Origin: Trichothermofontia sichuanensis B231
GTDB taxonomy: Bacteria > Cyanobacteriota > Cyanobacteriia > B231
DNA length: 64,000 bases
Assembly: GCF_026240635.1 (NCBI RefSeq)
Contig: NZ_CP110848.1
Span: 994,501-1,058,500, forward strand
Direction: 5' to 3'
Below the pieces are notes generated by a model, which made no database searches, had not been told where the DNA came from, and saw only the letters and a program-made list of their open reading frames with translations. The position numbers and the translations under genes are program-made. This document shows positions 55,024-61,337 of the stretch, in pieces. Every line of letters starts with the position of its first letter. The first letter of the stretch is position 1.

Positions 55024-55230
55024 GTGAGCAGTGTGATCAATCAGAGAAGGCTAATTTAGATTAAGACTAGCTCAGCCGCACTAACAGGATTAATTTCGAC
55101 AGGGTTAACTAGGGATCGTCAATGCCGCAGTATTCACTGAGCCGGATCAGCCGCTTAGGAACCTAGGGGCGTCTGGTATCCTGATCCCATCTGAATTCAC
55201 TTTGATCCCCTCAAACAGACGCCAAATCCA

Positions 55231-57270
55231 ATGTCGATCGTCCTGATGGCTCACCCCACGCAACACAAAGCTCTCGTCGATTGGGTGCAGCAACACGCCC
55301 CAATCCTCTCGCGCTATCCCCTGGTGACCCAGGCCCCGATCGCCGACCTCCTCAACCGAACCCCTACCCTGCCCGTTGAACCTACCCTGCCCACCCAGCC
55401 CACCCACGCCATTACCCACGCGATCGCCCAGGCGATCACCGACGGCAGCCTGATGGCGGTGATCTGCTTCATCGACCCGGTCCAAGCCGATCCCGCGTTA
55501 CCAGATATCCAAACCCTATCCGCCCTGTGCAGTGAATACAACCTGCCCCTCGCCTTTAACCGCGCCACCGCAACGGCCATCCTCAATACCTTTGTTCAGT
55601 TGCGTGTGGCCCATCTAATCTTCAATCCAGTAGCGGGCCAACGAGACCCGACCGAAGACTTGCTGATCATTCGCCAGACCCTCTCCCCCTTAATGCATTT
55701 GTCGATCCACTTCACCACCCCTGAAATCGATGCCGATGTGCTGGCCCGACAGGCGATCGCGGCTCAGCCCGACTTAATCATTGCATCCGGGGGGGACGGG
55801 ACGGTTTCTGCGGTTGCGGATGTGCTGCTGGGGACGGGCCTTCCCCTCGGAATTATCCCCAGGGGAACGGCCAATGCGTTCTCGGTTGCGTTGGGGATTC
55901 CCACCACACCCAAAGCGGCCTGTGATCTGATTCTGGCGGGTACGCAGCGGGTGGTTGATGTGGCCCGGTGCGACGATCGCTTGATGATTCTCCTGACGGG
56001 GATCGGCTTTGAGGCCGAAGCGGTAGACAAAGCCGATCGCGAACTCAAAGATCAGTGGGGTGCCCTCGCGTATCTCATGGCCGGTTGGCAACAGTTGGGT
56101 GAACAACGTCTATTTCAGACCCGGTTGGACGTAGAGAATCGCAGCTATCAGTTTCGCGCCGGGGCCATTACGATCGCCAATGCGGCTCCCCCCACCTCCG
56201 TCCTCGCCCAGGGTGTGGGACAGGTGATTTTTGATGATGGTCTGCTAGATGTCACGGTCTTAACCGGTCAACGAGAACCCCGTCCGACCATTCTTCATAA
56301 GTTGCGCGCGGCCAAATCCCTACTGGCGATCTATGGCGCTGCCCTCGCAAGTACGCAAATCAACGACTCCCGCATTTATCACCTGCGCACGCGTCGCCTC
56401 ATGATTACTACCACTCCCCCCCAAAAGGTGGTCGTTGATGGCGAAGTGGTGGGGACGACCCCCATCGCGATCGAATGTCTACCGAGCAGCCTCACGGTTA
56501 TCGCCCCCCCGCAGCTCCAACCTTCCCCCCTGGAAAAGGTCGCCACCTTCTGGGTACGACGGGTTTCCCCCAGCCTCACGACCTTAATTGCCGCGATCGG
56601 GGGAACAGGGTTGATCAGTTGTTTCCTGGTCCTGTGGGTTCTGGGTCGCCTAGCCACCGGCACGTTCTGGCGACAGACGGTGGCCGATTTTGATCGCAAT
56701 ACCCTCTTGGCGATTCATACCTGGGCCAACCCCAGCCTGGATCGGATGATGGTTGCCCTCACCCATCTGGGCAACGCCGAAGTCGTAGTCCCCACGGCGG
56801 TGCTGGTGCTGGGTATCCTCTGGGGACGGCAAGAACAGCGCCAGGTCTGGACCAGCTTAACGGCATTCCTGGGCGCAATGGTCATGAATATGGGCCTCAA
56901 ACCCCTGTTTGCGCGATCGCGTCCTGACCTCTGGCCCACCCTGATTACAGAAACCAGCTATAGCTTTCCCAGTGGTCATGCCCTGGGTTCAACGGTTCTC
57001 TATGGCATGATTGCCTACCTGTTGGGGCGTCACTTCCCGAAATACCGAGGTTGGTTCTATGGGGGGGCGATCGGGCTGGTGGCCTTAATCAGCTTCAGTC
57101 GGTTATACTTAGGAGTCCATTGGCCGTCAGATGTGATCACCGGAATCAGCATTGGCTTCCTCTGGTTAATGGTGGGGGTCATTATGTCGCGATTGCAGGA
57201 CTTACGGGAACTGCGTTCCCGGAGTGGTGCTGCTGAAGCATCGGCAGAATCGGTGCAATCAGCCACTTAA
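55231..57270 (+). CDS. Three-domain fusion: methylglyoxal-synthase-like, diacylglycerol kinase, PAP2 phosphatase
   Basis: The 679-residue protein begins with an MGS-like domain (1-125, IVLMAHPTQHKALVDWVQQH and ICFIDPVQADPALPDIQTL). A DAGK/LCB5-type lipid kinase (130-430) follows, with IIASGGDGTVSAVADVL and PRGTANAFSVALG. Last is a membrane-embedded PAP2 phosphatase (450-655) with complete motifs KPLFARSRP, SFPSGH and SRLYLGVHWPSD, and five to six helices. A kinase and a phosphatase acting on the same lipid headgroup class are thus joined. In the MGS part the GGDQQ segment with the catalytic Asp of E. coli MgsA, and its PHDPD His, are not conserved, so it may be regulatory. Confidence 0.88.
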   Translation: MSIVLMAHPTQHKALVDWVQQHAPILSRYPLVTQAPIADLLNRTPTLPVEPTLPTQPTHAITHAIAQAITDGSLMAVICFIDPVQADPALPDIQTLSALCSEYNLPLAFNRATATAILNTFVQLRVAHLIFNPVAGQRDPTEDLLIIRQTLSPLMHLSIHFTTPEIDADVLARQAIAAQPDLIIASGGDGTVSAVADVLLGTGLPLGIIPRGTANAFSVALGIPTTPKAACDLILAGTQRVVDVARCDDRLMILLTGIGFEAEAVDKADRELKDQWGALAYLMAGWQQLGEQRLFQTRLDVENRSYQFRAGAITIANAAPPTSVLAQGVGQVIFDDGLLDVTVLTGQREPRPTILHKLRAAKSLLAIYGAALASTQINDSRIYHLRTRRLMITTTPPQKVVVDGEVVGTTPIAIECLPSSLTVIAPPQLQPSPLEKVATFWVRRVSPSLTTLIAAIGGTGLISCFLVLWVLGRLATGTFWRQTVADFDRNTLLAIHTWANPSLDRMMVALTHLGNAEVVVPTAVLVLGILWGRQEQRQVWTSLTAFLGAMVMNMGLKPLFARSRPDLWPTLITETSYSFPSGHALGSTVLYGMIAYLLGRHFPKYRGWFYGGAIGLVALISFSRLYLGVHWPSDVITGISIGFLWLMVGVIMSRLQDLRELRSRSGAAEASAESVQSAT

Positions 57271-60856: not shown

Positions 60857-61337
60857 GGAGCCATGCTAATGTCAAGAGCTAATCGTGACCCAATCCCGTG
60901 AATTCGTGCACCGAATCCTCTAGATTGAAGTAGATTCAAGCACATGGACCCGCTATCATGAGCTAACCTCATGAGTCAATCAGGAAAGTTGTCAACCCAG
61001 CGGATAGAGAGGCATGAGTGCGACAAACGGGTGACTCCCCTGCCCATCCCTATGCTACTGTGCCATGCTGGGGATAGGTAGACTTCCCAGCCAGATCGTC
61101 CAGAAAGGCGATTGTCCCGTGCAAAGACGGCTCGAACGCTGACTGGGCGGGGACTGGATTAGGAAGCCCTCACCCTCAGCTAGGGGTTTGCAAGGGGGCC
61201 TGCTGGTGTCCCAAGTAATAACAGCTTATGCGACATGCCTGCCCCAGTTGCTAGGGGAAGCAGGTCGTAGTTTACTTATTAATCTTACTGACCGGCTCTG
61301 ATCGGCTCGATGTGCGACTGGCGCAGTGGAGGATAGT
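60857..61337. other. 481-bp gap between htrA and dnaA
   Basis: The region should hold the divergent promoters of the protease and dnaA. I found no cluster of TTATCCACA-type DnaA boxes, so I do not call an origin. A short CCCTCACCCTCAGC (about 61160) is a half of the hairpin repeat family. A Shine-Dalgarno GGAGG at 61328-61332 fixes the dnaA start. Confidence 0.5.

Follow-up and report, generated by a model that had tools for sequence, protein, structure and literature searches.

What does a cyanobacterium gain from a single protein that combines a methylglyoxal synthase (MGS)-like fold, a lipid kinase and a PAP2 phosphatase, and which of the three parts can still be expected to work? Such a protein is encoded in the window, by which we mean the whole 64,000-nucleotide stretch of Trichothermofontia sichuanensis B231 DNA analysed here. 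A sequence-only reading had placed MGS, DAGK and PAP2 motifs in one chain, and this was borne out by a single unbroken open reading frame that holds all of them and starts with an ATG at 55231. The preceding stop is at 55192, and the interval holds no alternative start in frame. A frame error or a pair of separate genes was ruled out, because seven homologues from other genomes also carry all three parts in one frame, and the PAP2 part is thus not a separately encoded protein. The gene is organised as follows:

55231..57270, + strand: whole gene, 679 amino acids; MGS-like part, lipid kinase and PAP2 module in a single frame, as in the seven homologues
55231..55596, + strand: MGS fold lacking the MgsA catalytic site, residues 1–122 (phmmer, fold match, lost residues)
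55603..56514, + strand: predicted YegS/DgkB-type lipid kinase (DAGK_cat and YegS_C), site complete, residues 125–428
55789..55803, + strand: GGDGT nucleotide-binding motif, residues 187–191
56524..57210, + strand: linker and predicted six-helix PAP2 module, residues 432–660 (Pfam, six hydrophobic helices, low-confidence model helices)
56899..56925, + strand: PAP2 motif 1, KX6RP, residues 557–565 (K557, R564, P565)
56968..56979, + strand: PAP2 motif 2, PSGH, residues 580–583
57097..57132, + strand: PAP2 motif 3, SRX5HX3D, residues 623–634 (S623, R624, H630, D634)

An AlphaFold2 model built on 39 sequences had a pLDDT of about 90 in the MGS part, about 90 in the kinase and 40–80 in the PAP2 part, and the nearest solved chains were Bacillus anthracis lipid kinases, B. 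subtilis YodM/PgpB, and the Thermus and E. coli MGS.

For the kinase, Pfam DAGK_cat matched residues 127–247 (3.4e-29; 101 bits, cut-off 23.6) and YegS_C matched residues 258–424 (2.1e-12; 47.5 bits, cut-off 27), and the PRK00861 lipid kinase model reached 422 bits, over its cut-off of 293. This part of the predicted model resembles 3t5p (Foldseek TM 0.84). The GGDGT motif together with D243, E261, D336, D340, D403 and E405 is invariant in all eight three-domain proteins. Judged by these residues, the window protein has a complete kinase site, and kinase activity looks like the constant function of the three-domain architecture.

The N-terminal part is recognisably an MGS fold: the NCBIfam MGSA model matched residues 2–137 (74 bits, E 9e-21, under the equivalog cut-off of 146.9 bits), residues 1–122 matched solved MGS chains by phmmer (E 8e-14), and the N terminus of the predicted model resembles the MGS 2xw6 (Foldseek TM 0.85 on the chain, rmsd 2.0). 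Nine site positions of E. coli MgsA (H19, D20, K23, T45, T48, G66, D71, H98 and D101) were compared, using a reference sequence that agrees with the PDB chain, and the window protein keeps two of them, those corresponding to H19 and D101. Missing are D71, which is the catalytic Asp of GGDQQ, and His98, as the sequence-only reading had said. The site is lost in all eight three-domain proteins, with the loss in the two Xenococcus proteins read off the alignment used for the PAP2 residues.

Pfam PAP2 matched residues 540–652 of the window protein (7.3e-23), and NCBIfam models of undecaprenyl-diphosphatases also matched this part (SepP at 1e-13, YbjG-type at 6e-8), with all PAP2 matches of this NCBIfam search far under their cut-offs. 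The 11 catalytic motif positions (K557, R564 and P565; P580, S581, G582 and H583; S623, R624, H630 and D634) are all kept. In the seven other three-domain proteins the site is broken, in differing ways: the motif residues read KRP/FNES/SSHD in Xenococcus MO_188.B8, IRP/LSNN/SRQD in Xenococcus PCC 7305, FRQ/ASRN/SRQD in G011 and G059, and KRP/PSGQ/SRND in the trio G042, G067 and G090 of genus g5. The PSGQ change alone need not kill a PAP2 enzyme, since PgpB retains 27% of its C55-PP activity without the C2 histidine (PMC7413402); the g5 trio is missing the C3 histidine as well. Among free-standing PAP2 homologues, the site was intact in 30 of 30 examined, one having RL for RP. By its residues, then, the window protein alone among the three-domain proteins found has a complete PAP2 site, and it is the one member of the set with a phosphatase that still seems fit for catalysis.

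Six helices were predicted from hydropathy and charge; the kinase and the C terminus would both be cytosolic (N-in/C-in), a placement that for the kinase also follows from its use of ATP. The loops that carry KX6RP/PSGH and the C3 histidine are predicted on the non-cytosolic side, a placement that rests on hydropathy and charge, the model of the PAP2 part being of low confidence, and that agrees with published PAP2 enzymes (including PMC7413402). With the two sites on opposite predicted faces, a switch acting within the same leaflet is unlikely.

A relative at E below 1e-60 was present in 233 of 390 genomes of the class, in many cases as an MGS-kinase protein of about 425–460 amino acids, and PAP2 was attached in only six of the 390. 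Two more three-part carriers, Xenococcus sp. PCC 7305 and Xenococcus sp. MO_188.B8, came from a scan of named genomes; a match in Halomicronema sp. CCY15110 was counted as G059, to which it appears identical in identity and frame length, and 293 further genomes of the Xenococcus order held no three-part case beyond these two. The total is eight genomes in four lineages. The two-domain MGS-kinase protein is thus common in cyanobacteria, and partly studied already, and the PAP2 addition is a rare variant. The window protein is about 50% identical to the other three-domain proteins, and no close relative of it was found in the genomes searched.

Both Xenococcus genomes, G011 and G059 also encode a separate two-domain MGS-kinase paralogue, whose MGS site is complete in G011 and G059, retains eight of nine residues in Xenococcus PCC 7305 and is lost in MO_188.B8. 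Across 87 two-domain loci, some of them from genomes counted twice through two collections, all nine MgsA residues were present in 45 and four or fewer in 21, which points to repeated decay of the MGS site. Loci such as L010–L027 and L061–L112 show this repeated loss with the kinase retained. Flanking genes were considered as an operon clue and proved uninformative, the neighbours differing between the lineages examined: prolyl oligopeptidase and a methyltransferase, SAICAR synthetase, a PLP enzyme or NadA elsewhere, ThiG and a LigT-like gene in the window. Separate lipid-kinase and PAP2 genes lie adjacent and convergent at L108:5944-7651 and on G002:C146, G026:C115 and G051:C1. Kinase-PAP2 pairing in cyanobacteria may recur without fusion.

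In a tree with 30 free-standing PAP2s, the fused PAP2 parts formed one side of a branch with support of 100/99. The kinase tree grouped the window protein, the Xenococcus proteins and those of G011 and G059 at 95–99 SH-aLRT and placed the g5 trio elsewhere on a long branch; a single clade was not rejected (AU p 0.28). The simplest reading of these trees is a single fusion, followed by spread and loss; two separate fusions would also be compatible with them. Plasmids of Aulosira, Nostoc and Brasilonema (H10–H12, H14) carry free-standing PAP2 genes whose products are about 50% identical to the fused module. It is possible that such plasmid PAP2 proteins were the source for the fusion. A match on an Acaryochloris plasmid that reached into the kinase tail was rejected as a fusion, the PAP2 gene there being preceded by short separate genes according to the annotation. 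On the Mesorhizobium plasmid H2, a DedA-PAP2 fusion gene adjoins a diacylglycerol kinase gene.

NG86 dN/dS in close three-domain pairs was 0.15–0.53 for the MGS part, 0.03–0.10 for the kinase and 0.05–0.23 for PAP2, the PAP2 figures coming from pairs among the relatives of the window protein. Pairs of intact free-standing PAP2s gave 0.06–0.25, so the dead modules are as constrained as working ones; by this measure, the dead PAP2 modules of the relatives are still under purifying selection. The MGS-to-kinase dN/dS ratio was 2.5–7.7 in three-domain pairs, which are few and in some cases share sequences; 15 two-domain pairs whose MGS is complete or nearly so had a median of 1.2. The MGS part is therefore relaxed yet constrained (below 1), and its probable use is in folding or assembly, not in binding a particular ligand. 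The earlier suggestion of a triose-phosphate sensor is not supported, for dN/dS is more relaxed in the MGS part than in the rest of the protein, its pocket residues are gone and vary between lineages, and only 13 of its 122 positions are invariant among the eight proteins. Most likely, the MGS part of the window protein is a remnant or scaffold without catalysis and not such a sensor.

In the host genome (4.44 Mb, one contig), the window protein is the sole PAP2 and the sole YegS-type kinase. A weak DAGK_cat match that might have been a second lipid kinase is an NAD kinase. No other MGS gene was found in this genome, where the search brought up just two frames, the size of carB and purH, and there is no second two-domain MGS-kinase copy. 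BacA and a DgkA-type kinase are also encoded, and with these present, the sole PAP2 and YegS-type kinase of the genome would probably handle glycerolipid rather than carrier-lipid phosphates. Elsewhere in the window, the gap at 60857–61325 upstream of dnaA (61326, GTG start) has no TTWT(C/A)CACA DnaA box and so does not look like a replication origin. Five genomes (G059, G042, G067, G090 and Xenococcus PCC 7305) have no PAP2 besides the dead fused one, and three of genus g5 (G004, G028 and G078) have no PAP2 gene at all, as is also the case for Synechococcus elongatus among the controls. PAP2 activity is therefore dispensable in these cyanobacteria, and the phosphatidate phosphatase of G004, G028 and G078 must be another kind of enzyme.

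We consider it an even chance that the protein described here is a lipid kinase anchored in the membrane, with an opposite-face phosphatase active in this lineage only, and with the MGS part as remnant or scaffold. The PAP2 module would build a YegS/DgkB-type lipid kinase into the membrane; the cytosolic kinase would phosphorylate diacylglycerol or a similar lipid alcohol of the inner leaflet, and the PAP2 site, facing the periplasm or the thylakoid lumen, would take the phosphate off a lipid phosphate in the other leaflet. The two sites would thus treat lipid phosphates on two faces rather than act as an in-place switch. The MGS-like part would be a leftover of an ancestral MGS-kinase fusion, with at most a role in folding or assembly, and sister lineages would have lost PAP2 catalysis and kept the module. 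This retention despite lost catalysis suggests that in every member the module probably serves to anchor the kinase in the membrane or to dock it to lipid.

That the PAP2 part is a mere membrane anchor in the window protein too, its phosphatase disused or on the way to loss, is what the broken sites of all seven relatives would lead one to expect, as would the genomes in which there is no other PAP2 or none whatever; retention of every motif position at about 50% identity to the other proteins is improbable without selection, and we regard this explanation as unlikely. The sequence-only reading had proposed a self-contained switch, in which the kinase and PAP2 would act on the diacylglycerol/phosphatidic acid pair and the MGS-like part would sense a metabolite that tips the balance. 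Its premise of two complete catalytic sites in one chain stands for the window protein, and diacylglycerol can cross the membrane, so that one pool could in principle be shared. The sites nevertheless face opposite sides in the predicted topology, the phosphatase site is lost in every three-domain relative, and the MGS pocket has decayed under relaxed selection, which together leave the switch unsupported as the function of this architecture and improbable, though conceivable, for the window protein with its two complete sites.

Supply of carrier lipid would suit the two-faced topology: the kinase would act on undecaprenol inside and PAP2 on undecaprenyl pyrophosphate outside, both yielding undecaprenyl phosphate, and the matches to the SepP and YbjG-type models point the same way. 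Those matches are sub-threshold, and the host already has BacA and the DgkA-type kinase for these steps, so we hold carrier-lipid supply to be improbable. A bolder conception would see a lipid kinase between two regulating or positioning pseudoenzymes, a dead MGS and a dead PAP2, among which the window protein would have remained bifunctional and would act on both faces of one membrane; the relatives' pseudo-phosphatase would bind, without cutting, a lipid phosphate of the outer face and report to the kinase inside. We regard it as quite unlikely. The preferred reading of an anchored kinase with an opposite-face phosphatase leaves an unexpected pattern in view, in which the lipid kinase is conserved and the enzymes on both its sides have repeatedly been lost. 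These proteins form a natural series, in which a lipid kinase is fused to two enzymes that are losing catalysis and one of them, PAP2, is still under selection; the series makes it testable whether a pseudo-phosphatase anchors or controls a lipid kinase across the membrane.

A search for the MGS-DAGK-PAP2 combination found no paper in the literature collection consulted. The closest known protein is the two-domain Synechocystis Sll0036 (PMC11897720), which shares the MGS-then-kinase order; the window protein is about 50% identical to two-domain loci over 425 residues. The two-domain proteins have no PAP2 and, unlike the window protein, many have an MGS site that is still complete. Methylglyoxal falls when sll0036 is knocked out, and the second domain was read as an inactive NAD-kinase motif without an ATP site (PMC11897720), whereas the two-domain family, compared here as a family rather than through Sll0036 itself, has a lipid kinase in which GGDGT is near-invariant. 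A search with the published primer showed sll0036 to be absent from the 390 genomes. The family comparison suggests a lipid kinase in Sll0036, the cyanobacterial ‘methylglyoxal synthase’, and in its kin as well, a part that the only knock-out study found had set aside.

Free-standing cyanobacterial PAP2 proteins (about 230–250 amino acids), the closest of which are 44–54% identical to the fused module including the linker before the first helix, differ in being unfused and in having kept the catalytic site in all 30 examined. Lipid kinase-phosphatase fusions are known from Streptomyces as ‘bifunctional phosphatase PAP2/diacylglycerol kinase’ (PMC12016549). Another is PRK12361 of gamma-proteobacteria, whose kinase part matches the window protein at E 7e-74; the equivalog reached 249 bits against a cut-off of 505, on the kinase part only. 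Neither fusion has an MGS part, and they also differ in build: in the actinobacterial fusions PAP2 presumably precedes the kinase, and the phosphatase of PRK12361 is presumably of another fold than PAP2, in line with one annotation among the plasmid hits that reads ‘dual specificity protein phosphatase’. S. aureus DgkB, the B. anthracis BmrU-type kinase and E. coli YegS share the kinase fold and motifs with the kinase part of the window protein, but they are soluble single-domain proteins, unlike the membrane-fused protein described here.
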